From Nocardioidaceae bacterium (GTDB lineage: Bacteria > Actinomycetota > Actinomycetes > Propionibacteriales > Nocardioidaceae): a stretch of DNA of 64,000 bases. Positions 6,902-32,486 of this stretch are shown piece by piece. The notes beneath the pieces are model-generated. The model was given only the letters and a program-made list of their open reading frames with translations. It did not search any database and had not been told where the DNA came from. A program made the position numbers and the translations under genes. Positions within the stretch are counted from its first letter, which is position 1; each line of letters starts with the position of its first letter. The stretch covers positions 744,001 to 808,000 of the forward strand of contig JAGIBL010000002.1 of assembly GCA_017744365.1 (NCBI GenBank), in the 5' to 3' direction.

Positions 6902-6974
6902 CCGGCCGACGCTAGGGACGTCGCGTTGGATCCCGCTCGTCCCGAGCGCCGGCCTGTGGAGAACTCGTCCCAGA

Positions 6975-7490: not shown

Positions 7491-7511
7491 ACGGTCATTC
7501 GACCAGGCGGC

Positions 7512-13230: not shown

Positions 13231-13358
13231 GCCGGCGCTGAGGCGGACGCTGGACCGGAGCGGACCAGACGAGACTCCGCGTCTCGCGAGCCGTGACCCC
13301 GGCCAGGCGCACTCGTTGGGGGTCTGACAGGTACTCACCAGTACAGCAAGGGTCCGCC

Positions 13359-15953: not shown

Positions 15954-16940
15954 TCAGCCGAAGCGGCCGTTGACGTAGTCGTCTGTCCGCTGGTCCCGGG
16001 GGTTGCTGAAGATCGCCTCGGTGTCGCCGTACTCGACGATCACGCCGGGCGCGTTGTGCTCGGCGAGGAAGAACGCGCACTGGTCGGAGATCCGGTGGGC
16101 CTGCTGCATGTTGTGGGTGACGATCACGATCGTGACCTCGCCGCGCAGGTCTGCGATGGTCTCCTCGATGCGCCGCGTCGAGCTCGGGTCCAGGGCCGAT
16201 GCCGGCTCGTCCATGAGCAGGATCTCCGGGGTCAGCGCCATCGCGCGGGCGATGCAGAGCCGCTGCTGCTGGCCACCGGAGAGCCCGCCGCCGGGCTGGT
16301 GCAGCCGGTCCTTGACCTCGTCCCAGAGCGAGGCCTTCTTCAGCGACTCCTCGACCAGGAAGTCGCGCTCCTCGCGGCTCGCCTTGGTGCCGGTCAGGTC
16401 CAGGGCGGCGACCGTGTTTTCGTAGATCGACATCGCCGGGAACGGGTTCGGCTTCTGGAAGACCATGCCGATCTTCTTGCGCGCGTCGGTGACGCGCTGT
16501 CCCGGCGCGTAGATGTCCTGGCCGTCGAGGACGACCTGTCCGGCCAGCGAGGCGCTCGGGATCAGCTCGTGCATCCGGTTCAGGATCCGCAGGAACGTGG
16601 ACTTGCCGCAGCCGGACGGGCCGATCAGCGCGGTCACCTGGCCGGCGGGCATGGTCAGGGAGACCCGGTCGAGCACCTTGCGGTCGCCGAACCAGGCGGT
16701 GATCGCCTCGGCGCGCAGCTCGGCGGCCTGGGTGCCACCGAGGAAGCCGCGCAGCACGTTGGAACCGCTGACGTCGACGCTGCCCGCCCGCCGCGCACCG
16801 CCGCGACCCCAGGGCCGTCGCCGGCCACGGGCCTGCGGGTCCGGCGCGGGCGGCGCCGCGAGGCCGCGCTCGAGCTCGAGGACCTGGGTCTCGACGTCCC
16901 GGTCGCTCGGGACCTCGATCTGCTCGCTCGACTCGTACAT
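15954..16940 (-). CDS. pstB: Phosphate ABC transporter ATPase with N-terminal extension
   Basis: A 328-residue cytoplasmic ATPase that energises PstCA. Walker A GPSGCGKST is at 107-115, the signature LSGGQQQR at 220-227, and Walker B ILLMDE at 240-245; NRMHELIP and VFQKPNPFPAMSIYENT are PstB-specific. The family is usually about 260 residues, so the first 70 residues, acidic then Arg/Gly-rich, are an extra N-terminal arm. The ATG at 16940 has AGGAG 6 bases upstream. It is the last gene of the minus-strand cluster, 26 bp after the pseudosortase. Confidence 0.93.
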   Translation of the reverse strand: MYESSEQIEVPSDRDVETQVLELERGLAAPPAPDPQARGRRRPWGRGGARRAGSVDVSGSNVLRGFLGGTQAAELRAEAITAWFGDRKVLDRVSLTMPAGQVTALIGPSGCGKSTFLRILNRMHELIPSASLAGQVVLDGQDIYAPGQRVTDARKKIGMVFQKPNPFPAMSIYENTVAALDLTGTKASREERDFLVEESLKKASLWDEVKDRLHQPGGGLSGGQQQRLCIARAMALTPEILLMDEPASALDPSSTRRIEETIADLRGEVTIVIVTHNMQQAHRISDQCAFFLAEHNAPGVIVEYGDTEAIFSNPRDQRTDDYVNGRFG

Positions 16941-16966
16941 GACAGCTCCTACTTCGGTTCCAGGGT

Positions 16967-17908
16967 TCACATCAGGTTGGGCAGCAGGTCGCTGACCCGG
17001 TCCGCGCAGGCGAGCGCGGTGGCGCCGACCATCGGCGCGAAGACGATCCAGGTGCCGGGATGGCCCCAGCGCTTCCAGGCCCACACGCCACCGACGGTGA
17101 ACAGGACCAGCAGCTCCATCAGCCAGGACAGCGAGAACATCCGCCCGGGATCGGAGGCGAGCGGCCGCTCGGTCGGCTTGTAGGTGTTGAAGGCCAGGGC
17201 CGGCCGCGGGAAGGACTTCGAGACCAGCTCGGCGTCGACGAGGACCGTCTTGTGCGGCAGGAACGGCGGCCCGCTCGCGGTCATCAGCACCAGGCTGCCG
17301 GCATCGCCGGTCAGCGCCGGCAGCTTGCTGCCCTGTCCGCGCACGCCCAGCACCTTGTACGTCGACTGGCCCTGCCCGGTCAGCACGGTGAAGGTCTGCC
17401 CGGGCCTGAGCTTGTCGATCTGGCCGAAGACCCCGCCGTACGCCGAGGACCGTCCCATCAGCACCGAGGCCCCCGGCTGTCCCGGCAGCGGCGTGTCCGG
17501 CCGGTGGCCGATGCCCATCTTGGTCTGCCGCGACGCGGCGCCCTCGACGATGACCTCACGGATGCCGAGGTCGGGGATCTTGAGCAACGCCATCGGGGTG
17601 CCCGGCTCGACGAGCGCACCCTGCGCATCGGTCTGGCCGATCGGCGTCGAGCCCTGCGCCAGGTTGAGCCGGAGCTCGTCGTACAGGCGGTGCTGCGCGG
17701 TGAAGTGCTGCAGCTGGCTGACCAGCGTCACGTTGAGCACCATCACCAGCAGCGCCAGCGACAGGATGGTGAGGCCGTAGGAGATGCCCACCAGGATCGG
17801 GTCCGGGGTGCCGGCGCGCGGCACCCGGCGCACCCGCGGCACCCGGCGGGTCCAGCCCGGCGCCTCGGGGAGCCGGCGTCGCCAGCCGAGCTCCCGGGGA
17901 GCGGTCAT
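16967..17908 (-). CDS. Pseudosortase: sortase homologue lacking the catalytic triad
   Basis: A 313-residue membrane protein: an Arg-rich head, a transmembrane helix (about 39-63), an extracytoplasmic sortase domain (about 105-230) and two C-terminal membrane helices (about 259-278 and 286-301). The domain aligns clearly with actinobacterial sortases through LLKIPDLGIREVIVEG, GHRPDTPLPGQPG and VFGQIDKLRPGQTFTV. The active-site residues are gone: the catalytic His position in MGRSSAYGG is R153, the Cys position in LVLMTASG is A211, and the Arg position is K220. It cannot be a transpeptidase by the known mechanism; a structural or binding role in the Pst/surface complex is inferred. ATG 17908 is preferred; an in-frame GTG at 17920 overlaps the previous stop. 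Confidence 0.75.
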   Translation of the reverse strand: MTAPRELGWRRRLPEAPGWTRRVPRVRRVPRAGTPDPILVGISYGLTILSLALLVMVLNVTLVSQLQHFTAQHRLYDELRLNLAQGSTPIGQTDAQGALVEPGTPMALLKIPDLGIREVIVEGAASRQTKMGIGHRPDTPLPGQPGASVLMGRSSAYGGVFGQIDKLRPGQTFTVLTGQGQSTYKVLGVRGQGSKLPALTGDAGSLVLMTASGPPFLPHKTVLVDAELVSKSFPRPALAFNTYKPTERPLASDPGRMFSLSWLMELLVLFTVGGVWAWKRWGHPGTWIVFAPMVGATALACADRVSDLLPNLM

Positions 17909-17912
17909 CGAG

Positions 17913-19625
17913 TCACCCACGCGCGGGCCCCTGGGTCGGCGGGCCGCCGCGGGCACCGGCGCGGGTGTCCAGCATCCGCGAGACCAGCGGCGGGGCCACC
18001 ACGAGCAGCAGCAGGAACCCGACGCTGAGGACGATCGCGAACACCGCCGGGCCCCAGGTCTTCTGCCCCTGGATGACGGTGCTGGCCGCGGTCGGGTTCA
18101 GGTCCCCGCCGGCGGTCGCCTGCGGCGTGCCGCACTGGCCGGTGACCGGGTCGCAGGTCGGCGCGGTGCTGCCCGGCGGCGCGGTCCCGCCGCCCGTCGT
18201 CGTACCGCCTCCGGTGGTCGTGCCGCCCCCGGTGGTCGTGCCACCTCCGGTCGTGGTGCCACCGCCGGTGGTCGTGCCGCCACCGCCAACGGTCGCGCCA
18301 CGCTTGCTGATCCACGGCGCCTGGCAGGCAGCGTTGCACTCGTCCGGGAAGGGCGCGGTGTCGGTGAGCACGTTGTGCGCCGGGCTGTCCCCGGGCTTGA
18401 AGGTCGGGTTGTTGCACTTGTTCGAGGTGCCCGCCTTCACCCCGGCCTTGGTCGCGGAGATCGTCTTCTTCGTCGCGGCGTCCACTCCCGGGATGCGCAG
18501 CACCTGGTCCATCGCGGCGAGCACCAGGTTCATCGGCAGCGGCGAGTAGCCGAGCGCGCCCATGGACCGCTGGCCCTCGCAGAGCCCGTACGTCGCGAAG
18601 TAGCCGAGCGTCGCGCCCTTGCCGGTGCTGAACGCGCCGTGGGTCTGCGTCGGGATCACCAGGTAGGAGTACGCCGAGATCGGGTAGGTCCGCGGGTCGC
18701 CGTACGCGTAGACCTTGGACAGGTCCTGTGACAAGTAGTTCTGCGAGGTCTTGTCCATGTTGATCTTGGCCTGGGTCAGCGCCACCGCGACCGCCTTGTC
18801 GGTCGGCACCGTGTAGAAGCCCGCGGCGTTCTTGACCTTGGCGACGGGGAACCCGACGCCGAGCGCATAGCTGTACTCGTCGTAGTTGATCGTGTACGGC
18901 GTGTTGGAGGTGTACGTCGTGACGCCGTTCGAGCCGGACTGCGCGGTGAAGTTCGACAGGCCCTGGTAGGGGAAGTACGAGGTGGCGTTCTTCGGGTTGC
19001 AGCCCGCCTTCGCGCAGAGCTTGGCGTAGTCACCCGGGAACTGGCGCAGCATCCAGAGCGTGAACTGCGCGGTCGCGCCCGAGCCGTCGGACCGGACCAC
19101 CACGGTGATCCGCTGGGCCGGCAGCGCGACGCCGGGGTTGCTGGCCGCGATGACCGGGTCGTTCCACCGGGTCACCTGCCCGGAGAAGATCTTCGCCAGC
19201 GCCTGCTGGGAGAGGCGCAGCTTGGTGAACCGCTGCCCGCCGACCGGCAGGTTGTACATGAACGAGGTGCCGCCGGCGACTGCGGGCACCAGGCCGTAGC
19301 CGAAGCTCGGGCGCTGGGAGTCCTGCGGGTCCGCGGTGTCGCCCGAGTAGGGGATCTCGGAGACCGCGAAGTCGGAGAGCCCGATCGCGAAGTTCTTCCG
19401 TCCCGAGGAGGAACCGTCGTTGGTGTAGTTGACGGTCACGCCCTGCGCCTTGACCGTGGCCCGCCAGTCCTCGATGGCGCCGGCCGCCCAGGTGGAGCCG
19501 TTGCCGCTGATCGTGGCGGTCGGGACGGCGTACGCCGCACCGAGGCCGGCGCTGATGGTGAGCAGGGCCACCGCCGCGAAGAGGGCGAGCAGCGTACGTC
19601 GTCGGGGCAGACGGCGGGGGGTCAT
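17913..19625 (-). CDS. pstS: Membrane-tethered PstS-type phosphate-binding protein
   Basis: A 570-residue exported protein. A signal peptide (about 1-33, ending AAYA) leads into a type II periplasmic-binding fold with phosphate-binding landmarks: ISGNGSTWAAGAIEDW, NDGSSSGRKNFAIGLSDFAVSE and VVVRSDGSGATAQF. After about residue 440 comes a linker of six GGGTTT-type repeats, a Cys pair (CDPVTGQC) and a transmembrane helix (about 527-550) with a short cytoplasmic tail. Unlike lipoprotein PstS, it is anchored C-terminally, and it is longer than the usual 320-370 residues. It overlaps pstA by 4 bp. It likely delivers phosphate to PstCA across the wall. Confidence 0.87.
   Translation of the reverse strand: MTPRRLPRRRTLLALFAAVALLTISAGLGAAYAVPTATISGNGSTWAAGAIEDWRATVKAQGVTVNYTNDGSSSGRKNFAIGLSDFAVSEIPYSGDTADPQDSQRPSFGYGLVPAVAGGTSFMYNLPVGGQRFTKLRLSQQALAKIFSGQVTRWNDPVIAASNPGVALPAQRITVVVRSDGSGATAQFTLWMLRQFPGDYAKLCAKAGCNPKNATSYFPYQGLSNFTAQSGSNGVTTYTSNTPYTINYDEYSYALGVGFPVAKVKNAAGFYTVPTDKAVAVALTQAKINMDKTSQNYLSQDLSKVYAYGDPRTYPISAYSYLVIPTQTHGAFSTGKGATLGYFATYGLCEGQRSMGALGYSPLPMNLVLAAMDQVLRIPGVDAATKKTISATKAGVKAGTSNKCNNPTFKPGDSPAHNVLTDTAPFPDECNAACQAPWISKRGATVGGGGTTTGGGTTTGGGTTTGGGTTTGGGTTTGGGTAPPGSTAPTCDPVTGQCGTPQATAGGDLNPTAASTVIQGQKTWGPAVFAIVLSVGFLLLLVVAPPLVSRMLDTRAGARGGPPTQGPARG
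18184..18290 (-). repeat. 18-bp tandem repeat encoding GGGTTT linkers
   Basis: About six imperfect 18-bp units encode Gly-Gly-Gly-Thr-Thr-Thr between the binding domain and the membrane helix of the tethered PstS. Copy number could change the tether length. Confidence 0.8.
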
Positions 19626-20908
19626 CGGGAGGCTCCCTGGGTCGGGTCCGAGCCTCGCAGCGCGGCCAGGTGCGCGGCGATCTCGGCGTGGTTGGACTCG
19701 ATACGTGACATGTCGCGCACGGACTGGGTCGCGCGGCGCCGGCGTTGCCGGTCGGTGATCTCGCCGGCCTGCTGGCCACCGAGCAGGCGGGCGACGACGA
19801 ACAGGACCAGCACCAGGAGGAGCAGCAGCGCAGCGACCGCGAAGCCACGGGTCTTCATGTCCGGCTGCGGGCTCTTGATGAACTCCAGCGCAGCCAGCGG
19901 CAGCGAGATCTGCGGGCCGTTGAAGGGGTTCCAGTTCAGGTTGCTGGTCACGCCCGAGGTGAGCAGCACCGGTGCGGTCTCACCGATGCCGTGGGCGGTG
20001 GCCAGGATGATCGCGGTCGTCAGGCCCGAGCGGACGGTGGGCAGCACCACCATCCGCACCACGGCCCACTGCCCGGCACCGAGAGCCAGGCCGGCCTCGC
20101 GCAGGTTGCCCGGCACCAGCCGGAGCACCACGTCGGCCGAGCGGATCATGATCGGCAGCATCAGCACGGTGATCGCCAGCGCCGCCGCGAAGCCGTTGAA
20201 CTGCTTGGTGAAGAGCAGGATCACCGAGGCGTAGATGAACAGGCCGGCGACCACCGAGGGCAGCGCGGTCATCGCCTCGACGACGGTGCGCACCAGCCGC
20301 GCGTACCGGCCGCCGATCTCGTTGAGGAACAGCGCGGTGGCGATGCCCAGCGGGATCGTGATGACCAGGGCGATGCCGATCTGCTCCAGGGTGCCGACGA
20401 TCGCGTGCAGCGCGCCACCCTCCTTGAGCGGCGAGAGCGGCCCGGTCAGGCCCATGTCGGTGGTGAAGAAGCTCAGCCGCAGCGAGCCGACGATCTTCAG
20501 CGCTCGCCAGCCGACGAAGCCGATCACCAGCGCCAGCAGGGCGACCACGATCATGCCGGCGGAGGCGAGCAGCACCCCGACGAAGCGGTCCTTGACCGCG
20601 GGACCGTTCTCGGTCAGCCGGGTCAGCGCGATGTAGGTGACCAGCATCCAGAAGAACGCGGTGACCGGGACCCAGCCGAAGCCGATGATGCCCAGCACCG
20701 GGCCGAGCATCAGGCCGAGCGCGACAGCCGCGGCGATCGAGCCCAGCGGCAGCCCGAGCCGCTCGAGCAGCGGCGGCCGGGTGCGGACCCGCTCCGGCTC
20801 GTGCAGCAGCGGCGGCAGCTCGTCGCGCGGGGTGAACGTGCCCGCGCCGGATCCGGTCTCGGGCGTGCGCGGGGCGGGAACCATCTCGTCGGTCATCCGT
20901 GTCGTCAT
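19622..20908 (-). CDS. pstA: Phosphate ABC transporter permease PstA, extended
   Basis: A 428-residue membrane protein. The C-terminal 290 residues are a typical PstA with six helices and the EAA-type loop around LREAGLALGAGQWAVVRMVVLPTVRSGLTTAIILATAHGIGETAP. The first 130 residues are extra: a Pro-rich head and two additional membrane segments (GSIAAAVALGLMLGPVLGII and VPVTAFFWMLVTYIAL). A basic C-terminal tail with QRRRRATQSVRDMSRIESN lies in the cytoplasm. It overlaps pstC upstream and pstS downstream by ATGA or 1-4 bases, so all are translated together. Confidence 0.9.
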   Translation of the reverse strand: MTTRMTDEMVPAPRTPETGSGAGTFTPRDELPPLLHEPERVRTRPPLLERLGLPLGSIAAAVALGLMLGPVLGIIGFGWVPVTAFFWMLVTYIALTRLTENGPAVKDRFVGVLLASAGMIVVALLALVIGFVGWRALKIVGSLRLSFFTTDMGLTGPLSPLKEGGALHAIVGTLEQIGIALVITIPLGIATALFLNEIGGRYARLVRTVVEAMTALPSVVAGLFIYASVILLFTKQFNGFAAALAITVLMLPIMIRSADVVLRLVPGNLREAGLALGAGQWAVVRMVVLPTVRSGLTTAIILATAHGIGETAPVLLTSGVTSNLNWNPFNGPQISLPLAALEFIKSPQPDMKTRGFAVAALLLLLVLVLFVVARLLGGQQAGEITDRQRRRRATQSVRDMSRIESNHAEIAAHLAALRGSDPTQGASR

Positions 20909-21933
20909 CAGCCCTCGCTCTCCGCACCCGAGCGCGACCGGGCGATGATCGCGGAGGCGGTGAAGTTGATCGCCATGGTGAGCAGGAACAGCGAGAGACC
21001 CGCGGCCATGAGCGCGCTCATGGTGAAGTCGTTCGCCTCGCCGTACCGCAGCGCGATGGTGACCGCGACCGAGTTCGACCCGTTCTGCAGGATGTGGAGG
21101 TTGATGTCGAAGACGGGCGAGAGGATCAGGTAGAGCGCGATCGTCTCGCCGAGCGCCCGGCCGAGACCGAGCATGGTGCCGCCGATGATGCCGCCCTTGC
21201 CGAACGGGATCACGACCGAGCGGATCATGCCCCACTTGGTGGCGCCGAGCGCGTAGGCGCCTTCGCGCTCGCCCTGCGGTGCCCGCGAGAACGCCTCGCG
21301 CATCATCGAGGTCTGGATGGGGATGATCATCATCCCGACCACGAGCGCGCCGATGAAGGCCGAGGAGGTGTACAGCGCGTCGTTGGGCAATGGGTTCGAC
21401 GGGTCCGCGCCGTCGACCTTGAAGATCGGGATCCAGCCGAAGTACGTCGACAGCCAGCGCGCGAACGGCACCATGTGCGACTGCAGGAACACCAGGCCCC
21501 ACAGGCCGTAGACGACCGAGGGCACCGCGGCCATCAGATCGATCGCGCCGGTGAGGAACCCGCGCAGCCGGCCGGTGGCGACCTCGGTGATGAACAGCGA
21601 GGCGCCGAGGGAGAGCGGCAGCGAGACGACCAGGGCGATCAGCGCGATCGTCACCGTGGCGGTGAGCAGCGCGGCGATGCCGAAGTGGTTGGTCTCCGGC
21701 GACCACTTCTGGGTGGTGAGGAACTCCCAGACGCCGACCGACTTGATCGCCTTGACGGCCTTGACGCTCAGGAACGTCCCGACCAGCACCATGATGACCA
21801 GCACGAACGAGCCGGCCAGCCGGGTGATCTGCCGGAACGCCTGGTCGACCGGGGCGTGGGCGACCCGGATGTCGCGGGCGACCGCGTCGTCGAGGCTGCT
21901 GGCCGGGTAGTCGGGCAGGTAGGTCGTGGTCAC
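20908..21933 (-). CDS. pstC: Phosphate ABC transporter permease PstC
   Basis: A 341-residue inner-membrane permease. Six hydrophobic segments are visible, with the long extracytoplasmic loop typical of PstC, LTGAIDLMAAVPSVVYGLWG, and the EAA motif around GEREGAYALGATKWGMIRSVVIPFGKGGIIGGTMLGLGRALGETIA. Start is GTG at 21933, chosen because it is 5 bases after the upstream stop and gives the family length; no Shine-Dalgarno is seen, so translation is probably coupled to the gene before. Confidence 0.9.
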   Translation of the reverse strand: MTTTYLPDYPASSLDDAVARDIRVAHAPVDQAFRQITRLAGSFVLVIMVLVGTFLSVKAVKAIKSVGVWEFLTTQKWSPETNHFGIAALLTATVTIALIALVVSLPLSLGASLFITEVATGRLRGFLTGAIDLMAAVPSVVYGLWGLVFLQSHMVPFARWLSTYFGWIPIFKVDGADPSNPLPNDALYTSSAFIGALVVGMMIIPIQTSMMREAFSRAPQGEREGAYALGATKWGMIRSVVIPFGKGGIIGGTMLGLGRALGETIALYLILSPVFDINLHILQNGSNSVAVTIALRYGEANDFTMSALMAAGLSLFLLTMAINFTASAIIARSRSGAESEG

Positions 21934-21938
21934 TGCGG

Positions 21939-24707
21939 TCAGCCGATCTTGACGGTGCTGCGAAGGCGGAGGAGCGGGCCGATCAGTCCGGTCACCAGGG
22001 CGATGCCCAGCCCGAACGGGAGGATCCACCGTGGGAACGACTCGGTCCCCGCCGAGGCGTTGACGAACTGCGTACTGGGCGAGACCACGTTGCCGCCGGC
22101 GGGCGCACCCACCGGAGCGCTCGCCACCGGGACGTCGCCGCCGTTGCTGCCCGGGGTTCCCGAGCCCGCGGTGTCCGGGTCCGAGCCGTCCCCGTCGCCC
22201 TGGGTGCCGTGGCCGGCGGGCTTCGGGTCGGTGGCGGCGAGCAGGGTGGCGATGCCGGCCCTCGCGTCCGCCTGGAGGGCACTGGTGAGAGGCGCGTAGC
22301 CGGGAGGCAGGTTGCCCGGCGCGAACCCGGCCTTCTGGCCCGCCGTGGTCACGTACTTGAGCGCGCGACCGTAGACGTGCTTCTGGTCGGCGCTGATCGT
22401 CTTGGCGACGGCCGCGAAGACCGGCATCGTCAGCGGGTAGGCCCCGGCCGCGTAGTCGGCCGAGCCCGGCTCCTTGGCGCCCTCGACCCCGCTGTCGACG
22501 AACCGTGCTGCCGCCTTGCGCATCGAGTCGGTGGTGGCGCCGACACAGTGCTTGCCATCGCTGTCGCACAGCTTCGCGGTGGGCAGCTGGTACGTCGCGG
22601 CGGCCGCGGACCCGACGATCGCCATGATGCCCATCCGGTCGGTTGCCTGGCGGGTCTTCAGGTCCCGCCACTTGCCGGGCGCCGGCAGGCAGCTGCCGTC
22701 GATCGCCGTGTAGCAGAAGTCGTCCAGCCGCGGCAGGTACCCGATCGCCGTGTCCCGGGCAGCGACGGTCATGTTGTCGACGCGCGGCAGGAACTCGAAG
22801 ACGGAGTACGGCAGCTGCTTGACGTCGCCAACGGTCTCCACCGACTCCTGCCAGCCCGGCAGCGGGAACGGCGAGCCATCGGGCGGGTAGCTCACCGGCT
22901 GGTCCACGTAGGAGTCGGGAACCGGCTGGGCCTTGCGGTCAGCGTCGGCCTTGGCGGCGAGCGCCGTCTTCTGCGACTCGCAGCCCTGGTAGGTCCGGGT
23001 CGAGTAGAACGGGTTGACGACCATGCCGTCGTGGTCCGGGCAGCCGTTGAGGAACGCGCGCGCATCGGGGTCGGCCAGGATCCAGCGCCAGACCTCGCTC
23101 GCGGCGTCCGAGCGGGTGCCCTCGACCAGCAGGTGCGCGATGAGGTTCTTCACCGACCTGCCGTCGAGGTGGGCCAGCGAGGGGTTGAGCCGCTGGAACT
23201 CCGGGTCGTACGCCACCGAGGCCGGCCGGTTGGCCATCCAGTCCTGCAACGGGTACGCGCGCGTGCTGATGATCGCCCGCTGGTAGCTCTGGGTCAGCAG
23301 CTTGGCGACCAGCCGCGCGTCGAGCCGGAGATCGCGAACCGGCTGCCCGACCCGCTCGAGGTCCTTCTCGAACTCGGCGAGGCTGCCGTACCCGCACTTC
23401 GTGGTCACGTTCTCCGCGGTGTACGGCGGCTCGCACTGCACCTGGTACGTCAATGAGTACGCGAAGACCGGTGCCGCGAGCGCCATCGGGACGTGCACGG
23501 CTCCGACGGCCGGGCGGGTCGTCAGCGCGGCGGAGCTGGCCCCCGAGGCGAGCTGGTTCCGGGCGACCTCGTCGCCCAGCACCGTGTAGCCCAGGGCGAT
23601 GTTCTCGGCCTTGCAGAGGCCGGGCACCCAGGAGGCGGCGGCCAGCGAGAGCAGCTCAGAGCCGTTGGTCAGCGACCGGGCCTGCCCGCCCGGGCACCCG
23701 GGCAGGATGTCGCGCAGGCCGAGCCGCACCTGGAGCCGCTGCGCCCACAACGACGGGGAGATCGGCCCCGAGGTCGCCAGCACGTCGTCGAGCCGGGGCA
23801 CGATCACCAGCCAGCACGACCCGATGCTGGCCTGGCCGACCCGCCGGCCGCAGCCGAGACCCGGCGCCTCGACCGAGGTCTGGACCTCGAACTGGGTCGC
23901 CGCGTCCCCTCCGGCGGAGATGTTCACCCGCGACACCTCGTTGGTGGTGGTTGGGTTGAAGAATTGGTTGTTGCTGCCCGTCGTGCTGCCCGACTTCTCG
24001 CCCGTGAGCGCGGTGAACGGCACGTCGTGGTCGCCGGTCTGGCCCAGGAACTTCTCCCAGTCACCACCGCCGGCCAGCGGATCGTTGCCCAGGTAGCGAC
24101 CGTTGCGCGGGTTCGGCGCCCGGTTCGCCACGGCGTCGCCGGCGCCGACCTGGCAGGTCGCCGGGTCGGGCGCGCTCCCGCTCGGGTCGGGAGATCCGTT
24201 GGCCTTCAGGCCACCCCAGCACTGGAAGATCTGGAAGCTCGCGTACGACGCCCCGCCCGGGATCGTGGCACCACCCTTGGCACCGGAGATCTCGACGGCG
24301 ACCGACTGGTTGACCAGGTTCCGGGTCTGCGAGACCCGCACCTCGAGCCCACCGAGGCCGTTGTCGGCCCCGAAGGTGCTGAAGTACGGCGCGACGATCG
24401 AGCTGCGGATGTCGTCGTACGTCTTCCCGCCCGTGTGCGGGACGCCCTGCCGGCCGTCCCGGAAGACGACGTCCGAGGACGGGTTCCCCGTGTTGTCCCA
24501 ACGGACCGTGACGGCACTGTCACTGGTCAGCAGGCCGGACGGGCCCCAGTCCGAGCCGTCGTTGACGCCGGTCGCCGCGACCGCCGGGCCACCAATCCAG
24601 CCCGGCAGCCCGGCGAGTGCGAGCAGAAGTCCGAAGACGACGACCACGACGCGGGCACGCGTCGACGATCCCCGAGAAGTTCGCTGAGGGGTCGCCGAGG
24701 GTGGCAT
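21939..24707 (-). CDS. Large membrane-anchored exoprotein of the Pst cluster
   Basis: A 922-residue exported protein I do not recognise. A twin-hydrophobic signal region (about 19-44) is followed by about 800 extracytoplasmic residues with many Cys (CWGG, GCGRRVG, CLPAPG, CDSDGKHC) suggesting disulfides, then a Gly/Asp/Pro-rich linker (about 835-890) and one transmembrane helix (about 896-917) with a short Arg/Lys tail. Stretches such as LLTQSYQRAI and YPLTMPVFAAVAKTISADQKHVYGRALKYVTTAGQKAG recall the C-terminal half of PstS-type binding proteins, so a second, much enlarged phosphate-binding module is possible. Strong GAAGGAG before the ATG. It lies between a GWWGH paralogue and pstC in one tight operon. 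Confidence 0.65.
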   Translation of the reverse strand: MPPSATPQRTSRGSSTRARVVVVVFGLLLALAGLPGWIGGPAVAATGVNDGSDWGPSGLLTSDSAVTVRWDNTGNPSSDVVFRDGRQGVPHTGGKTYDDIRSSIVAPYFSTFGADNGLGGLEVRVSQTRNLVNQSVAVEISGAKGGATIPGGASYASFQIFQCWGGLKANGSPDPSGSAPDPATCQVGAGDAVANRAPNPRNGRYLGNDPLAGGGDWEKFLGQTGDHDVPFTALTGEKSGSTTGSNNQFFNPTTTNEVSRVNISAGGDAATQFEVQTSVEAPGLGCGRRVGQASIGSCWLVIVPRLDDVLATSGPISPSLWAQRLQVRLGLRDILPGCPGGQARSLTNGSELLSLAAASWVPGLCKAENIALGYTVLGDEVARNQLASGASSAALTTRPAVGAVHVPMALAAPVFAYSLTYQVQCEPPYTAENVTTKCGYGSLAEFEKDLERVGQPVRDLRLDARLVAKLLTQSYQRAIISTRAYPLQDWMANRPASVAYDPEFQRLNPSLAHLDGRSVKNLIAHLLVEGTRSDAASEVWRWILADPDARAFLNGCPDHDGMVVNPFYSTRTYQGCESQKTALAAKADADRKAQPVPDSYVDQPVSYPPDGSPFPLPGWQESVETVGDVKQLPYSVFEFLPRVDNMTVAARDTAIGYLPRLDDFCYTAIDGSCLPAPGKWRDLKTRQATDRMGIMAIVGSAAAATYQLPTAKLCDSDGKHCVGATTDSMRKAAARFVDSGVEGAKEPGSADYAAGAYPLTMPVFAAVAKTISADQKHVYGRALKYVTTAGQKAGFAPGNLPPGYAPLTSALQADARAGIATLLAATDPKPAGHGTQGDGDGSDPDTAGSGTPGSNGGDVPVASAPVGAPAGGNVVSPSTQFVNASAGTESFPRWILPFGLGIALVTGLIGPLLRLRSTVKIG

Positions 24708-24720
24708 CCCAGTCTCCTTC

Positions 24721-26400: not shown

Positions 26401-26495
26401 GGTGGTCCCTTCGAAGAGAGTGGTGACACGTACCCAGGGCCGGGCGCCGGTGCGGTCCCGAGCCGCCTCCTTCGTGCCCTGCCGATCAAACCGAG

Positions 26496-26528
26496 AGCCT
26501 GGAAACGATCCGCGAACGGACGCTGAAC
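26496..26528 (-). promoter_or_regulatory. PHO-box-like direct repeats upstream of paralogue B
   Basis: Read on the minus strand, three consecutive 11-base units: GTTCAGCGTCC, GTTCGCGGATC and GTTTCCAGGCT. PhoP/PhoB-type regulators of actinobacteria bind GTTCAC-like units at 11-bp spacing. The box lies between the stop of paralogue C and the start of paralogue B. Confidence 0.55.
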
Positions 26529-26543
26529 GCAGCCGAAACGTTG

Positions 26544-27650
26544 TCACGGGTGCCCACTCGCAGCGGCGCCGCGTCGCAGGAGTGCGACGCACCCGACCAG
26601 CGCAGCCAGGACGACGACGGCCAGGAGCGAGAAGAGGACGGGCCGGCCCCCGGGGACGGCGGCCACGAGCCAGTTCTCGCTCGTGCTGCCGTCGCCGGCC
26701 TTCGAGGACGCCCGCGCGGAAGAGGCTGACTCGCTCTCGCCCTGCTGCGCCGCCGGGGCGCCACTCGCGTCCTCGCCGGTCGTGGTGCCCGCCTTGCCGC
26801 CACCGGGGTAGGCGCTGGGCGGGCTGTAGGTCAGCACCTCGAATCCGGCCGAGGTCCGCGCCGGGTCGGTCGGGTTCGCCACGGTCCGGAAGGTCAGCCA
26901 GGCGGAGATCGCCCGGCCGTCCGGCCCGACCGCCACCCGCGGGATCAGCGGGTAGGTCTTGTCGTAGCCGTCGGCGAGGTAGAAGACCATGCTGATCTTC
27001 GTTCCGGCCGGCCAGCGGTTCAGGATCGACGCACCCTCCGGCGTGGTGGTCGGGTCACCGCTGCCCGCCGAGTTGACGTTGAGGACCTTGAGGTCCGGGC
27101 TGTAGCCCTGGAGCGGCCGCCCGACCTTCCACCATGCCGTCCACTCGCTCAGCGTGGACACGGTGAACACGGCGTCGTTCTTGCTGGCGGCCCCGTTCCA
27201 CGCCGCGCCGAACGGGGCGTCGGTGAACCAGTCGAAGACCTCACCGGCGTTCTGGCCCTTCGTCACCGCGGGTCGCTCGTTGGAGCCGTCCGCGCTGTAG
27301 GGGACGAACGCGACCCGGAGGTTCTCCAGGGTCTGGTCCTGGAGCTTCTTGCCGAGTGCGGCGGTGGAGGCAGCGGTCACCTTCCCGCTCTGGTCCGCGA
27401 GGTCGAGGGAGAGGAAGGTCGATCCGGTCCTGGCCGGCGTCGCCCCGGTGCCGTGACCCCACCAGCCTCGGTGGATCGCGTGGGTCGGATCGCCGGTCAG
27501 CGCACCGGGCTCGAGGATCACCTCGGCCAGCGAGCCCCGGGGCGCCTTGGCGTCCGCCGGGGCCGCCAGCAGGGCCGGAGTCGCCACGAAAGCGGCGGCG
27601 ACCGCGGCCGCGACCGTGCGGAGGATCCGGGTCTTCACGGTGGTGGTCAT
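26544..27650 (-). CDS. GWWGH-domain paralogue C with C-terminal membrane anchor
   Basis: A 368-residue exported protein. Signal peptide about 1-34 (ending ADA), then the shared domain: AIHRGWWGHGTG, FVPYSADGSNERPAVTKGQ, FDWF, LQGYSPDLKVLNV, GASILNRWPAGTKISMVFYLADG and SAWLTFRTVANPTDPARTSAGFEV. A Ser/Gly/Ala-rich linker (about 285-328) leads to one transmembrane helix (about 338-357) and a short basic tail. It is the minimal form of the family: one domain plus an anchor. Its ATG overlaps the stop of the DUF916 gene, so the two products are made together and may interact. Confidence 0.7.
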   Translation of the reverse strand: MTTTVKTRILRTVAAAVAAAFVATPALLAAPADAKAPRGSLAEVILEPGALTGDPTHAIHRGWWGHGTGATPARTGSTFLSLDLADQSGKVTAASTAALGKKLQDQTLENLRVAFVPYSADGSNERPAVTKGQNAGEVFDWFTDAPFGAAWNGAASKNDAVFTVSTLSEWTAWWKVGRPLQGYSPDLKVLNVNSAGSGDPTTTPEGASILNRWPAGTKISMVFYLADGYDKTYPLIPRVAVGPDGRAISAWLTFRTVANPTDPARTSAGFEVLTYSPPSAYPGGGKAGTTTGEDASGAPAAQQGESESASSARASSKAGDGSTSENWLVAAVPGGRPVLFSLLAVVVLAALVGCVALLRRGAAASGHP

Positions 27651-28816
27651 GCTTCGCTCCTGGTGACGACGGCGGCGTGCCGGGGTGCGGGGGCCGCGGC
27701 GATCTCGGCCTTGAGACGGGCTCGCTCACGGCGGCGGCGGTCGAGCCGCCAGCCGAGGAAGCCGAGCAGCAGCAGGACCACGACGATCTCGAGGACCAGC
27801 AGCCAGGGCAGCGCCCAGAACCCGGCCGAGGCGGTCGCGGCCGGGACCTTCTTCGCGTAGCCGGTGTCGACCACCGAGGGATGGAGGGTGACCTTCGCGC
27901 GCGGACGGCCGAGGCCGAACCGGTCCTCGAACCTCTGCGTGACGGTGACCTTGGACCCGGGCAACAGGTCGCGCAGCCGGCGCGGGTGCGCCACCAGGTC
28001 GGAGAACGGGCACGGGACCAGCGGCACCACGCAGCGGTCGACGTTCACGTCCTGGGCGACGTCGAGGCGCATGTTGCCGGTGTTGTGCACGGTGTAGCTG
28101 ACCGTGTAGAGGCCGCGGCCCAGCGGGTCGCGGTGGTCGTCGTACGACGCGTGGAGGTTCTCCACCGACACCTTGGGGGCGAGGTCCCCGCTCAGCGAGA
28201 AGTAGGCGCGCACGCCGACCCGCTGGTCGAGGGTGATCTTCGCGCCCTTCTTGTTGCGGCTGGTCACCTTGAGCGAGGCGACGATGCCGGCGACGTGGTC
28301 ACCGGGGGCGGCCTTGAGCGGAATGCGCGCGATGAACTTGACCAGCTTGGTGTTGTAGGGCTGCTTGCCGACCCGGCCGGGCACGGTGATCCGCCCGTTC
28401 TTCGGGAGGTCACGCAGCGTGATCCAGGTACCGGCGTCGGCCGGGGTGTCGCCCCCGGGGAGCAGGCCGAAGGCACCGTCGTCGCTCTGCACCGCGTCGG
28501 TCGGGTAGACCTGCAGCGTCAGCGGCCTGGTGCCGTAGTTGAAGATCTTGATCTGGTCGAGGATCGTCGCGCCGGGGTTGGCCGAGTAGACCAGGTAGGC
28601 GCGGCCGTCGACGACCTGCTTGTCCGGCACGTGCTTGGCCGGGCCCATGCCCCAGCTGGCGTCGCCCTTGCCGTTCTTGGCGGTGCCGCTGCCGGGATTG
28701 GGCTGGGTGTCGTCCGCGCCGGCGTAGCCGGAGACGAGCGTCAGGCTGAGGAGCGCGGCCACCAGGACGGCGACCACCCGCAGCCCTCTGCGGATCGAGG
28801 GGTGTGCTTCGTGCAT
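27647..28816 (-). CDS. DUF916 (WxL-interacting-like) membrane-anchored protein
   Basis: A 389-residue exported protein. Signal peptide about 1-33; then a beta-sandwich with the DUF916 pattern: YSANPGATILDQIKIFNYGTRPLTLQVYPTDAV, GTWITL, a Pro/Gly-led strand series and VSYTVHNTGNMRLDVAQDV, which begins a second Ig-like part like DUF3324. A transmembrane helix (about 337-357) and an Arg-rich tail close it. In Firmicutes such proteins bind WxL proteins and peptidoglycan; the neighbouring 28945 gene ends in a WxL-like region, which fits. The ATG at 28816 has no clear Shine-Dalgarno. It leads the two-gene unit with paralogue C. Confidence 0.75.
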   Translation of the reverse strand: MHEAHPSIRRGLRVVAVLVAALLSLTLVSGYAGADDTQPNPGSGTAKNGKGDASWGMGPAKHVPDKQVVDGRAYLVYSANPGATILDQIKIFNYGTRPLTLQVYPTDAVQSDDGAFGLLPGGDTPADAGTWITLRDLPKNGRITVPGRVGKQPYNTKLVKFIARIPLKAAPGDHVAGIVASLKVTSRNKKGAKITLDQRVGVRAYFSLSGDLAPKVSVENLHASYDDHRDPLGRGLYTVSYTVHNTGNMRLDVAQDVNVDRCVVPLVPCPFSDLVAHPRRLRDLLPGSKVTVTQRFEDRFGLGRPRAKVTLHPSVVDTGYAKKVPAATASAGFWALPWLLVLEIVVVLLLLGFLGWRLDRRRRERARLKAEIAAAPAPRHAAVVTRSEA

Positions 28817-28863
28817 CGGGGGCGGATCTTTCTCTGACGTGGTGCGGAGGTTCCGCCAGGGGT

Positions 28864-28895
28864 GGTGGGGCGGGTGCCGAGGCACCCGCCCCACC
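28864..28895 (-). terminator. Strong hairpin after the 28945 gene
   Basis: Perfect 14-bp stem (GGTGGGGCGGGTGC and its complement) with a CGAG loop, about 50 bases after the stop of paralogue A and before the DUF916 gene. No T-tract follows, as is common in high-GC actinobacteria. Confidence 0.75.
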
Positions 28896-28944
28896 TGTGC
28901 AGGAGACGCGTCCGTCTCCCCCGCCCCCTGGCGGTCTTCGTGGG

Positions 28945-30855
28945 TCAGGACGCGGTGAAGGTCACCGTGCCCGTGTAGGTGCCGGACGGCGTGGTGGTGG
29001 GCGCGAAGATCGTGAGCGTGCCGTGGTACGTCACGTTGCTCGGGCCCTGGTTCGCCGAGAGCACGGTGTGCGGGATCCCACCCAGGCCCAGGTTGCCGCT
29101 GGCGGCCGGAGCCACCGGGGCAGCCGGAACCGGGTTGTCGGTGGCGGTGATGGTGCCGATGCCCGGGTTGCTGCCCGGGTCCGCCACCAGCGTGGTCAGG
29201 CCGACGTTCTGGCCGTTGATGAAGTGACCGGAGCCGTCGGCGAGGTTGCCGGCCAGCGCGGTCAGCGCCCACGGCTGGGCACCGTCACGGGTGTCCACGA
29301 CGTGGATGCCGTCGAACTGGGCCGAGCCGCGGTAGCCGTCGAGCGCCGTGGTCAGTGCCAGCGTGCCGAGGTCGAGCGGGTTGCCCGGGCCGTACGGCGT
29401 GGTCACGGTCAGCGTTCCGGTCGGGATCGTGGCCGTGATGGTCTGGTCGTCGATCGAGACGCCGGACGGCGCCGCGAGGGTGAAGGTGACGCTGCCCTGC
29501 GAACCGCCGAAGCTCGGCGAGGTCGGCGTGAAGACGCCGGTCACCGTGTGGCTTCCGGCGGCAGCGAAGGTGTGCGACAGGGTGGCGACACCCGCGCCGT
29601 CGACCGTGACGGGCGAGCCGATGTTGGTCGGGCCGTCCTTGAACTGCACCGTGCCGGCGGCGACCGGGCTGACGGTCGCGGTCAGGTCCACCGGGGCGGT
29701 GACATCGGCGCCCGGCGTCGCGGCGACCGAGGTCGTGGTGGGGGTGCCGTTGATGACGAACGGGACATCGGCCGAGGTGGAGGTGTTGAAGGCCAGCGTC
29801 GAGGTGTTCGTCGGGGTGTAGACCGCCTTGAAGGTGTGGTTGCCCACGGCCGGGGTCTGCCCGTTGAGGTGAGCCACACCGCCGGACAGGGCGCCGGTGC
29901 CCAGCGAGGTGGCACCGTCGAAGAACTCGACCGAGCCGACCGGCACGTCGGTGCCCGAGGCGGGCGCGACGGTCGCGGTCAGGTTGATCGAGGTGCCGGC
30001 CGCCTGCGGCGAGGTCACCGAGGTGGTCAGCGAGGTGGTGGTGTTCTGCGGGATCGCGCCGAACGACGTCACGTTGTAGCCCGACGAGGTGCGCAGCGAG
30101 TCCGAGGGCTTGGCCACCGTGGTGAAGGTCAGCCAGGCGGTCTTGGCCTTACCGCCGGACGCGAGAACCTGGGGCTTGCCGTTGGTGTACTGGCCGTTGG
30201 ACTCGAAGAACACCATGCTCAGCTGGGTGCCGGCAGGCCAGGCGTTGAGGATCGACTTGCCCTGCGGGGTGGAGGAGACCGTGTTCGGGCCGATGTCGAC
30301 CAGCTGAAGGTTGCTGTTGTAGCCCTGCAGCGGCTGGCCGGCGGCGAACCACGCGTTCCACTCGGCGCCGGTGGAGACGGTCAGGACGCTGTCGTTGGCG
30401 TTCGAGGTTCCGTTGAGGCCGGCGAACAGGCCCTGGTCGGCGAAGCGGGCGTTCGGGCCGAAGACCTGGTCGACCGTCTGGCCGGTGGTCGCGTTCGGCT
30501 TCTCGGTCGAGCCGTCGGCCGACGTGGGCACGAAGACGACCCGCAGGTTGTTGTCCGGGTCGGTGAACGCGGACTGGAGCTGACCCGAGAGGTAGTCGGC
30601 CGAGAGGGTCGTCGGGTTGGTGCCCGAGGGCGCGGCAGCGTTGCCCTCGTGGCCCCACCAGCCGTGCTGGATCGCGTTGCTGAGGTCGCCGCTCACGCCC
30701 GACTCGAGCATGACCTCGACCGGCGACCCACTGGGCTTGTACGCCTGGGCGGGCATAGCGGTCGCCGCGACCAGGCCGAGCGGAATCGCGGCAGCGGCCA
30801 CACCGGCCACCACGCGACGCCACCGCACCCCGCGGGGGGTAAGAGATGTGCGCAT
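28945..30855 (-). CDS. GWWGH-domain paralogue A with Ig-like repeats and WxL-like end
   Basis: A 636-residue secreted protein. Signal peptide about 1-38 (ending PAQA). The shared domain (about 40-285) has AIQHGWWGHEG, VVFVPTSADGSTEKP, LQGYNSNLQLVDIG, GKSILNAWPAGTQLSMVFF and KTAWLTFTTVAKPSDSLRTSSGYNV. Two Ig-like repeats follow (VPVGSVEFFDGATSLG and AAGTVQFKDGPTNIG type). The last 190 residues carry IHVVDTRDGAQPWALTALAG and end in SGTYTGTVTFTAS, which resembles the WxL surface domain (W-x-L plus a distal tail). It lies between two hairpins, so it may be transcribed alone from the promoter next to a PHO-like box. Confidence 0.7.
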   Translation of the reverse strand: MRTSLTPRGVRWRRVVAGVAAAAIPLGLVAATAMPAQAYKPSGSPVEVMLESGVSGDLSNAIQHGWWGHEGNAAAPSGTNPTTLSADYLSGQLQSAFTDPDNNLRVVFVPTSADGSTEKPNATTGQTVDQVFGPNARFADQGLFAGLNGTSNANDSVLTVSTGAEWNAWFAAGQPLQGYNSNLQLVDIGPNTVSSTPQGKSILNAWPAGTQLSMVFFESNGQYTNGKPQVLASGGKAKTAWLTFTTVAKPSDSLRTSSGYNVTSFGAIPQNTTTSLTTSVTSPQAAGTSINLTATVAPASGTDVPVGSVEFFDGATSLGTGALSGGVAHLNGQTPAVGNHTFKAVYTPTNTSTLAFNTSTSADVPFVINGTPTTTSVAATPGADVTAPVDLTATVSPVAAGTVQFKDGPTNIGSPVTVDGAGVATLSHTFAAAGSHTVTGVFTPTSPSFGGSQGSVTFTLAAPSGVSIDDQTITATIPTGTLTVTTPYGPGNPLDLGTLALTTALDGYRGSAQFDGIHVVDTRDGAQPWALTALAGNLADGSGHFINGQNVGLTTLVADPGSNPGIGTITATDNPVPAAPVAPAASGNLGLGGIPHTVLSANQGPSNVTYHGTLTIFAPTTTPSGTYTGTVTFTAS

Positions 30856-30899
30856 GACTCTTCTTTCTTGGGAGTTGAATTCGAGTGCTGCGGAATCGG

Positions 30900-30921
30900 T
30901 GCTGCTGAACCCACGCGGAAC
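30900..30921 (-). promoter_or_regulatory. PHO-box-like repeat upstream of paralogue A
   Basis: On the minus strand two adjacent 11-base units, GTTCCGCGTGG and GTTCAGCAGCA, lie 45-66 bases before the ATG at 30855. They match the unit form of the other two boxes in the cluster. Confidence 0.5.
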
Positions 30922-30990
30922 GAACGCGGGCGGCCCGGGCCGTCGCTCGGGAAAGCTCGCCAAGGGGGTGCGCGATGCCTCCGGCGTGGT

Positions 30991-31020
30991 CACCGGGCCG
31001 GGCTGGCGCCCGGCCCGGTG
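30991..31020 (-). terminator. Hairpin after the PstS-like gene
   Basis: Perfect 13-bp stem (CACCGGGCCGGGC and complement) with a TGGC loop, 35 bases after the stop of the 31056 gene. It would end or attenuate the PstS-like transcript before paralogue A. Confidence 0.75.
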
Positions 31021-31055
31021 CCACCGAGTGGAGGCTCTCCTACGTCAGGGCCGGA

Positions 31056-32291
31056 TCAGTGCCGGAAGGCAGCGTCCTTGAAGTTGGCCCCGTTGCCGAT
31101 GTACGACAGCGTGCCGAACCCGTAGTTGCCGATGATGGCCCGGGCGGCGCCCGAGTTCAGGCCACCGGCGCCGAGGATCGTGTTGGCCAGCGTCGTCTGC
31201 TTCAGGGTTCCGGTCAGGAACGAGGTCGGAACCACGTTGTACACGTCGCGGTTGTAGGTGCCGATCGCGGCGACCGGGACGGTGGTGTAGTTCGAGCCCA
31301 CCTTGGCGCCGTACAGCGCACCCGGCGCCGCGCTCGCACCCGTGCCGGTGACCGGAACGAGGCTGTTGATGCTCGCGAGCTTGAGGCCGGCAACGGTCGG
31401 AGCCGCGCCCTGCGGGTTGGTCACGCCGCGCTCCTGGGCGATCCACTGGGCGGCCGAGAAGCAGATCAGGTCGCCGGCGTTCGGCAGCGTCGAGGTGCGG
31501 TTCTCCTCGAGGCTGTTGCCCGCCGTGTCGACCTGCAGGCCCACGCTGGTCAGGTTGCCGAAGGTCGCGTTGTTGAAGAACTCGTAGGTGCCCGAGCCGT
31601 TCTGCGGCAGCCGCGGGTGGATCGCCACACCGTTGTAGGAGACCGTGGTGCCGGCGGTGGTCGCGCCGCCCTGGGTGCAGCCCGCGAACGTCACGTTGCC
31701 CGTGTCGGTGCAGTTCTGGCCGAAGACGGCGGCGATCTCCGCGGTGGTGAAGTTGATGTTGTCGAACGCGCCGGACGGCTTGTACGCCACGGAGACGGCG
31801 TCACGGGCCATCGGCATGAACTTCAGCGAGGTGCCGGCAGCCGCCGGGCCGCTCGAGGAGCGCGAGAAGTCGACCGGAGCGTTGGCGTCCGCGTCGGTCC
31901 AGCCGTTCAGGTCGGTGGCGTTGGTGCCCGAGGCCGGCCAGGTGCCGTTGTAGGCGAGGTCCCAGACCGCGCTCAGCGCGCGCTGGCCGTTGCCCGAGCC
32001 CTTCGGGCGCGGGAACCAGGGGGTGAGGGTCTTGGTCTGGATGAGCGACCCGGTGTCCTCGGCGGTGGTGCCCTGCGCGAAGGCGTTCCACGAGGCGACC
32101 GACGGGATCGGCGCACCGAAGTCGTTGGTCAGACCGTTCCAGACGTCCTGGATGGTGTCCGAGCCGACGGCGGCGTACGGACGGGTCGGGTCAGCCGAGG
32201 CCGGCTGGATGGTGGATGCGATGAGGCCGGTGGCGGCGGTCATGGCGACCAGTCCACCGAGCACTGCCTTGTTGAGTCTCTTCAGCTGCAT
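31056..32291 (-). CDS. Secreted PstS-like substrate-binding protein
   Basis: A 411-residue exported protein with a signal peptide (about 1-34, ending ASA) and no lipobox or anchor. The mature part opens with YAAVGSDTIQDVWNGL, the first strand and anion-binding loop of the PstS-type fold, and has DFSRSSSGPAAAG, MARDAVSVAYKPSG, PQNGSGTYEFF and a hinge-like repeat of PVAAIGTYNRDVYNVVP. It therefore probably binds phosphate or another oxyanion, freely diffusing in the wall. It is the first gene of the cluster, preceded by a PHO-box-like repeat and followed by a hairpin, suggesting high expression alone. The ATG at 32291 is set by the signal peptide. Confidence 0.78.
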   Translation of the reverse strand: MQLKRLNKAVLGGLVAMTAATGLIASTIQPASADPTRPYAAVGSDTIQDVWNGLTNDFGAPIPSVASWNAFAQGTTAEDTGSLIQTKTLTPWFPRPKGSGNGQRALSAVWDLAYNGTWPASGTNATDLNGWTDADANAPVDFSRSSSGPAAAGTSLKFMPMARDAVSVAYKPSGAFDNINFTTAEIAAVFGQNCTDTGNVTFAGCTQGGATTAGTTVSYNGVAIHPRLPQNGSGTYEFFNNATFGNLTSVGLQVDTAGNSLEENRTSTLPNAGDLICFSAAQWIAQERGVTNPQGAAPTVAGLKLASINSLVPVTGTGASAAPGALYGAKVGSNYTTVPVAAIGTYNRDVYNVVPTSFLTGTLKQTTLANTILGAGGLNSGAARAIIGNYGFGTLSYIGNGANFKDAAFRH

Positions 32292-32453
32292 AGCAGAGCT
32301 GCCACTCTCTCTCGATGTCACGGGCCCGCGGGATTGCGGAACCGATCGCGAGGATCCGGGCACACCGAACCAGGGTGTTTAGCTCGCGCCTGAAGGGGTA
32401 GGGCCCAGAACCGGCAGGAGAAGATCAACGCAGGAAGGTTGCCACTCAGCGCC

Positions 32454-32486
32454 GTTCGAGCAACGACGAGAGAACACTGTGTGAAC
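32454..32486 (-). promoter_or_regulatory. PHO-box-like repeats upstream of the PstS-like gene
   Basis: On the minus strand three adjacent 11-base units: GTTCACACAGT, GTTCTCTCGTC and GTTGCTCGAAC. The first matches the actinobacterial PhoP core GTTCACC at 6 of 7 bases. The box lies 163-195 bases before the ATG. Confidence 0.6.

Follow-up and report, generated by a model that had tools for sequence, protein, structure and literature searches.

The gene cluster

A 64,000-nucleotide stretch of a Nocardioidaceae bacterium genome (GCA_017744365.1, contig JAGIBL010000002.1, positions 744,001 to 808,000; hereafter the window) features a cluster of 11 genes on its minus strand, at 15954-32291, in which proteins of the phosphate transporter Pst are combined with wall-type exoproteins and a sortase-like protein. 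The genes lie in the order PstS1, GWWGH1, DUF916-like protein, GWWGH2, GWWGH3, a 922-residue protein (the giant PstS), PstC, PstA, PstS2, the sortase-like protein and PstB (Table 1). A previous annotation made from the letters and open reading frames, the sequence-only reading, described this cluster of about 16 kb, and all 11 genes are present as it claimed. Its statement that neighbouring genes overlap or are only a few bases apart holds from GWWGH3 through PstB and for the DUF916-like/GWWGH2 pair, where spacing is at most 26 bp, but not for the remaining gaps of 200, 128 and 143 bp.

The same reading assigned the Pst proteins to known families. PstC and PstB score above the curated NCBIfam cut-offs (343.2 bits in the case of PstB), PstS2 is above the cut-off of PF12849 with 119.5 bits, and the sortase-like protein is above that of PF04203 with 45.6 bits. 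PstA and PstC exceed the BPD_transp_1 cut-off, as GWWGH1 and GWWGH3 do that of Big_3_5. The more specific profiles are missed slightly by PstA (TIGR00974, 180.7 versus 193.45 bits) and PstS2 (TIGR00975, 192.7 versus 205 bits). Family-profile searches found no recognised hydrolase among the cluster proteins, and the 11 genes include no kinase and no PhoU.

Table 1. Genes and repeat sites of the cluster, in window coordinates (TM, transmembrane segment; PBP, periplasmic binding protein; Ig, immunoglobulin).
Feature	Position	Strand	Description
PstS1	31056..32291	-	411 residues, secreted, PBP-like, no C-terminal anchor; present in 44/48 loci
GWWGH1	28945..30855	-	636 residues; GWWGH domain, Big_3_5 Ig-like domains (2 stretches), WxL-like C-terminal end
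DUF916/WxLIP_PGBD-like	27647..28816	-	389 residues; C-terminal TM; 17.9 bits, sub-threshold
GWWGH2	26544..27650	-	368 residues; GWWGH domain, C-terminal TM
GWWGH3	24721..26400	-	559 residues; GWWGH domain and Ig-like domains
Giant PstS relative	21939..24707	-	922 residues; signal peptide, C-terminal TM; oxyanion ligands apparently replaced
PstC permease	20908..21933	-	341 residues; TIGR02138 247.3 bits, above cut-off
PstA permease	19622..20908	-	428 residues, N-terminal extension; site of E. coli Arg220 is His
PstS2	17913..19625	-	570-residue PstS; C-terminal TM anchor; Asp56 site is Glu, Thr141 site is Ala
Pseudosortase	16967..17908	-	313 residues; hydrophobic segment at each end; LPN near C-terminal end
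PstB ATPase	15954..16940	-	328 residues; Walker A, signature and Walker B intact; TIGR00972 346.7 bits
PHO-box-like direct repeat	32469..32486	-	upstream of PstS1; 11/14
PHO-box-like direct repeat	30904..30921	-	upstream of GWWGH1; 11/14
PHO-box-like direct repeat	26511..26528	-	upstream of GWWGH3; 11/14

A conserved core in actinobacteria

Relatives of the cluster were sought within Actinomycetota, and 48 loci were compared. Counted with broad profiles that were trained on those same 48 loci, PstC, PstA, PstS2 and the giant PstS are each present in 48, the pseudosortase in 45, PstB in 44 and PstS1 in 44, followed by the DUF916-like protein in 17 and the GWWGH2 profile in 6; 43 of the 48 loci owe their initial discovery or selection to giant-PstS or PstC matches, and the set includes several close relatives, most notably ten Micrococcales loci. 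In the three loci that lack a sortase (L071, L116 and L118), the stretch or contig ends less than 2.4 kb from the last gene found.

A scan of named genomes contributed 18 loci, from 3 Nocardioidaceae, 8 Arthrobacter or Pseudarthrobacter, a Renibacterium metagenome-assembled genome (MAG), Agreia, and 5 further MAGs whose labels are Acidimicrobiales, Ilumatobacteraceae, Acidimicrobiaceae or simply Actinobacteria. Of these taxa, Agreia and Pseudarthrobacter are Micrococcales, and Ilumatobacteraceae falls in the class Acidimicrobiia; two classes of Actinomycetota have kept the core. The giant-PstS profile matches 128 of 341 genomes of the family, many of them partially, with full-length orthologues above 1000 bits in 7, and it matches 10 of 396 genomes in the phylum sample. 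The giant PstS of one relative (L103) has zero matches in a plasmid collection. GWWGH2 is present in 4 of 58 relatives (the window's own genome included), and the other three carry the whole cluster in unchanged order. An oddity of one genome is ruled out by this retained order. Co-occurrence in related genomes, which the sequence-only reading had named as one check on its proposal, is found beyond the window's genome in the 48-locus core, in a reverse search from sortases and in the restriction of GWWGH domains to this cluster, both described below.

The systems exist beside ordinary Pst transporters. An ordinary pst operon is kept in all seven window-type Nocardioidaceae genomes that were read, and in the window's own genome pstSCAB is intact (L088). 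That genome also holds a second copy of the core system (L083; G000:C14:1001-21000), in which a DUF916-like gene was not found. Two genomes have three systems each plus the ordinary operon, G016 (L016, L084 and L100, two of which adjoin) and G312 (L070, L087 and L099).

At the level of sequence, these comparisons establish PstC, PstA, PstB, the anchored PstS, the giant anchored PstS relative and the pseudosortase as a conserved unit that is separate from canonical PstSCAB. PstS1 is placed by the same comparisons as near-core, and the WxL-like, WxLIP-like, Ig-like and GWWGH proteins as a variable outer layer.

The pseudosortase

The sequence-only reading described the sortase as catalytically dead, and the alignments bear this out. 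In the window protein the catalytic His is replaced by Arg and the catalytic Cys by Ala, and the site of the catalytic Arg reads KTV. Among aligned pst-linked sortases, Arg occupies the His site in 23/23 and Cys is at the active site in 0/23; a wider alignment of 17 sequences is concordant. The homology itself is evident from PF04203 and from PDB sortase chains, which are matched from E 1e-6. The protein shares its PF04203 membership with class E sortases, but it scores 52.5 bits against the class E profile NF033747, which misses the cut-off of 160, and unlike class E enzymes all pst-linked members that were read lack the catalytic Cys and His.

A reverse test started from sortases. A sortase profile was run on the 396 phylum genomes, of which 222 matched at E 1e-10, and 20 places were fetched from the many listed. 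In this author-chosen set, which comprises the strongest matches not collected before and a selection of weaker ones in stretches of 5.4-18 kb, the sortases without His and Cys adjoin pstA, pstB, pstC and pstS in 5 of 5 cases, and those keeping His and Cys have pst genes in the fetched stretch in 0 of 15. The His site is Lys in L121, and L123 retains the catalytic Arg. This search rules out that the linkage is an artefact of picking loci through the giant PstS. A working enzyme and a decaying pseudogene are both ruled out by the Arg at the His site in the 23/23 aligned sequences and by their Cys site, which is never Cys, across diverse families. The pst-linked sortases seem to represent an enzyme fold recruited to serve as a subunit.

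The PstS-type proteins, permeases and ATPase

Two PstS-type proteins were recognised in the sequence-only reading. Both are there, and the count was too low, as the 922-residue exoprotein is a third. On its own this protein gives a weak PstS match (E 0.0066). Its family profile matches M. tuberculosis PstS-1 in the PDB with E 1.3e-6, covering only profile positions 669-800, and hhalign aligns it to the PstS2 profile over 316 columns (E 7.8e-5, probability 61.6). An adhesin of no known kinship is ruled out by this relationship, limited as the PDB match is to positions 669-800. Because the giant protein is related to PstS, the cluster encodes three PBP-type proteins: PstS1, which is secreted, and PstS2 and the giant PstS, which have a C-terminal hydrophobic segment. 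PstS1 alone has no database match, with nothing below E 0.4 in the PDB; its relative in L074 passes PF12849 (42.3 versus 27 bits).

The mode of anchoring separates the system from canonical transporters. The C-terminal hydrophobic segment is found in PstS2 of 48/48 loci, in the giant PstS of 45/48 and in PstS1 of 1/44, and a lipobox-like pattern is found in PstS2 of a single locus. Eight canonical operons, seven from system genomes and one from a genome of the same genus (L101), served for comparison. Their PstS has the C-terminal segment in 0/8, and the lipobox pattern scored in 6/8, with a similar ACG end visible in the other two. PstS of the system is thus held by a C-terminal segment, whereas canonical PstS is held by an N-terminal lipobox.

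The permeases are likewise distinct. In a tree with a long E. coli branch, system PstA forms a clade apart from the canonical and E. coli proteins with support of 100/100, and system PstC does so with 94/93. The 11 window-type rows form a clade within the system permeases (100/100 for both PstA and PstC). Every complete PstB of the system (30 loci) has its ATPase motifs intact. One MAG locus has PstB spread over two frames (L119:12661-13513), which is either a sequencing error or a broken gene. Next to pstB in the window, an 885-residue open frame on the plus strand (13293-15950) converges on the gene; it has no Pfam match at E 0.001.

PHO boxes

The PHO box was scored as GTTCACC-N4-GTTCACC over 14 positions, with 12 or more matches counted as strong. 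Canonical pstS genes, the positive control, reach 12 or more in 8/8. Scoring covered 43 of the 48 loci, five being omitted where pstC was not the first gene. The regions upstream of the first gene reach at least 11 in 20/43 and at least 12 in 15/43. Shuffles of those regions, which deal non-overlapping dinucleotides and so preserve dinucleotide content only roughly, give means of 1.77 (at least 11) and 0.22 (at least 12, maximum 2), and the reverse strand gives 2 and 0. An earlier run on 30 loci had 16 reaching 11 and 11 strong. Chance alone is ruled out by these numbers for the family, though not for the window and its closest kin; part of the family is likely to be under Pho control.

In the window, the sequence-only reading saw PHO-box-like repeats before three transcription units. 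Three repeats are there, but they are weak: each needs three mismatches, and the one perfect box of the whole genome lies upstream of canonical pstS. The three sites jointly reach 11 in 0/1000 shuffles, each alone having p ~0.04. The three-mismatch pattern occurs 19 times in the window versus 10.8 expected, a count as high in 1/100 shuffles. In Nocardioides marmorisolisilvae (Nocardioidaceae), the corresponding site ahead of PstS1 scores 13/14.

The outer layer

The GWWGH domain is confined to this cluster. A GWWGH profile finds 21 domains in 7/341 family genomes, every one inside the cluster, and these are the same seven genomes that hold the full-length giant PstS; the domain in one of them (G312) is weak at 59 bits. 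Neither Pfam nor the PDB offers a credible match to the domain (nothing below E 0.4 in the latter), and a Pfam search on 19 members gave no family in more than one member at E 1. A contig scan for GWWGH2 alone, the sole GWWGH search beyond the family, gave 210 pattern matches and zero relatives.

The identification of the DUF916 protein holds in part. The window protein stays below threshold at 17.9 versus 27.3 bits, and its counterpart in L074 passes at 30.8. It matches nothing in the PDB below E 0.4. WxLIP proteins consist of a PGBD and an HBD and bind WxL, according to a passage of PMC10599100; the window protein has no HBD match, so that only the PGBD-like part is seen, together with the C-terminal TM. 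In two loci (L102:4248-6482 and L069:14824-17292) the DUF916-like protein and GWWGH2 are one reading frame, with hydrophobic stretches between the domains in L102. Since the two loci are sisters in the tree, the single frame is probably one event.

A WxL-like end had been claimed for one GWWGH exoprotein. The C-terminal end of GWWGH1 has W529 with Asp at W-8 and Arg at W-6, an Asp/Arg pair that a passage of PMC9772566 names for WxL domains. The second motif, 104 residues on, reads FTA, and Pfam WxL (PF13731) has no match in the window and reaches 22.7 versus 25 bits in L080. In a pattern search, a WxL-like end was near the DUF916-like gene in 12 of the 17 loci that have one.

A comparable pair is found elsewhere in the window's genome (L019; G000:C8:850001-862000). 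A purple acid phosphatase (PF16656, PF00149) is encoded on the minus strand at 6399-8582, preceded at 75 bp by a PHO box of 13/14, and directly after it, at 5311-6384 on the minus strand, lies a WxLIP_PGBD protein (40.2 bits). The phosphatase has a WxL-like end by eye and no Pfam WxL match at E 0.01. The pair is probably a wall-held, Pho-regulated phosphatase. With its PHO box, it suggests that such pairs probably serve phosphorus scavenging in this genome, which favours capture over host adhesion.

Interpretation

The most likely role of the cluster is that of a Pho-regulated, wall-spanning oxyanion capture and import complex. More broadly, it would belong to a family of Pst-derived ATP-binding cassette (ABC) systems, widespread in actinobacteria, that have been rebuilt as wall-spanning capture complexes and import phosphate or a close relative, to which we assign a rough probability of 0.45. 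This places import of phosphate or a close relative first, a sensing or mechanical role second and other phosphorus ligands third. The genetic unit is well supported; the mechanism is inferred as follows. Under phosphate starvation, PhoP would turn the locus on. The pair of WxL-like and WxLIP-like proteins would, together with the Ig-like exoproteins, fix the complex to peptidoglycan, and the soluble PstS1 and the giant PstS could act on a phosphorus source within the wall, bridging or docking it. The anchored PstS2, the one protein with a clear oxyanion pocket, would then pass its ligand (phosphate or something closely related) on to PstC/PstA, where uptake would be driven by ATP. As for the pseudosortase, it would act as a membrane-held scaffold rather than an enzyme. 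Points in favour of this reading are the conserved unit, the separate permease clade, the C-terminal anchoring, the intact PstB motifs, PstC Arg237 in 48/48 loci, the PHO boxes of the family and the phosphatase pair.

The sequence-only reading had proposed a wall-spanning phosphate capture or sensing complex induced by phosphate starvation. Its coherent, conserved Pst-derived locus with WxL-like and WxLIP-like proteins and a dead sortase stands, but several residues expected for phosphate import are altered, and these, with the following points, weigh against the proposed capture and import complex. The PstS2 pocket residues examined were T10, S38, D56, R135, S139, G140 and T141. In the window D56E and T141A are found and the rest are kept, and Glu at the Asp56 site and Ala at the Thr141 site occur in 17/17 window-type loci, whereas D56 and T141 are kept in 8/8 canonical proteins. 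In the 31 other system loci, position 56 is split between Glu (15), Asp (15) and Ser (1), and 3 have Ala at position 141. The pockets of L083, L099 and L100 are altered further (H135, A139, V141). In PstA, Arg220 is kept in 8/8 canonical rows and is His in 17/17 window-type loci. Replacement of PstA Arg220, PstC Arg237 and PstC Glu240 by glutamine blocked phosphate transport and left signalling, as a passage of PMC5775613 reports; PstC residue 240 is Gly in the E. coli record used, so only the two arginines were compared. Because Glu56 is common in the family, it is Ala141 together with His220 that marks the window type, and since the 11 window-type loci of the tree form one clade, Glu56, Ala141 and His220 probably reflect one shared event.

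Further points concern the other binding proteins and the PHO boxes. The giant PstS lacks the oxyanion ligands in a single hhalign alignment, and the homology between PstS1 and PstS2 is weak (hhalign probability 13.5). Of the 43 scored loci, 23 stay below 11 matches. Strong boxes are found in just 1 of 7 Nocardioidaceae window-type loci, in 6 of 10 Micrococcales loci and in 8 of 26 others, so support for Pho control is uneven. The weak window sites are not among the genome's 84 places within two mismatches (backward control 13).

ABC complexes of the FtsEX type provide a model for ATP hydrolysis that is coupled to conformational change. By analogy, the cluster could encode a sensing or mechanical machine that imports nothing and couples ATP hydrolysis and PBP occupancy to the conformation of surface proteins, for example to display or retract adhesins or to report the state of the wall or of phosphate. 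This is a doubtful second choice. The His220 of window-type PstA can be likened to the signalling-only PstA mutants, the giant PstS has apparently lost its oxyanion ligands, the conserved pseudosortase and the outer proteins go beyond the needs of import, and all seven system genomes read for it still have an ordinary pst operon. Against it, PstA Arg220 is kept in 30 of the 31 other system loci (Val in L125) and PstC Arg237 in 48/48, the PstS2 pocket is mostly kept in most loci, and a kinase or PhoU is missing from the 11 genes of the window. In its most novel form, which we regard as equally tentative, the family would be a new class of envelope machine: a Pst-descended ABC system that no longer imports, or for which import has become secondary. 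PstB would hydrolyse ATP to drive or sense an assembly across the wall, built from a ligand-binding PstS, a giant PstS without ligand and a sortase fold turned structural subunit, and exchangeable adhesin-like outer modules would be displayed during phosphate starvation.

Less probable again is a family of importers for phosphorus compounds other than orthophosphate, such as phosphate esters or phosphonates, whose paralogues would differ in ligand, and their outer proteins in the polymer served. The pocket residues do differ between systems of one genome (for example the window and L083), up to three systems and an ordinary pst operon are found per genome (G016, G312), and the outer proteins vary around a constant core. 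This ligand assignment is conjectural, and the absence of a recognised hydrolase from the window cluster speaks against it. That a surface adhesion cluster merely lies beside a pst operon without joint function is very improbable: the outer proteins do differ among loci and GWWGH is limited to seven family genomes, but the core is kept in two classes, the fetched sortases are dead only when pst-linked, and many genes overlap or lie a few bases apart.

Relation to known systems

The system resembles canonical PstSCAB in the homology of PstC, PstA, PstB and PstS, in its ATPase motifs and in the PHO boxes upstream of part of the loci. It differs in the separate permease clade and the C-terminal anchoring described above, in the added giant PstS, PstS1, pseudosortase and outer proteins, in the changes of the pocket and of PstA, and in the lack of phoU among the window's 11 genes. 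With the WxL/csc clusters of Firmicutes (DUF916, now WxLIP) it shares a DUF916/WxLIP_PGBD-like TM protein beside a WxL-like end with Asp at W-8 and Arg at W-6. Passages of PMC1534035, PMC10599100 and PMC9772566 propose a role in surface capture for csc clusters. Unlike those clusters, the window has no match to HBD (DUF3324), no full second WxL motif and no protein reaching PF13731; an ABC transporter is coupled here and the host belongs to Actinomycetota, whereas the passage of PMC10599100 speaks of firmicutes. The extracellular PstS appendages of Pseudomonas aeruginosa are similar in that surface PstS is used beyond uptake (PMC7866108), but neither a pseudosortase nor a WxL protein is mentioned in that passage. 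No description of a system that combines Pst with WxL or sortase was found in open-access titles and abstract openings, a scope outside which most subscription journals lie. The one paper found to hold both PstS and WxL concerns E. faecalis strain diversity.

The cluster joins three fields that are usually apart: sortases, WxL-type wall complexes and Pst transport. Sortases divide cleanly, in the set fetched, into dead ones linked to pst and active ones that are free, an apparent example of an enzyme fold that became a subunit. As Nocardioides and Arthrobacter both have such systems, which in the seven Nocardioidaceae genomes read lie beside ordinary pst, the rule that a pst gene means phosphate import may mislabel them. 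They might also illustrate how phosphorus is collected across the thick wall of Gram-positive cells.

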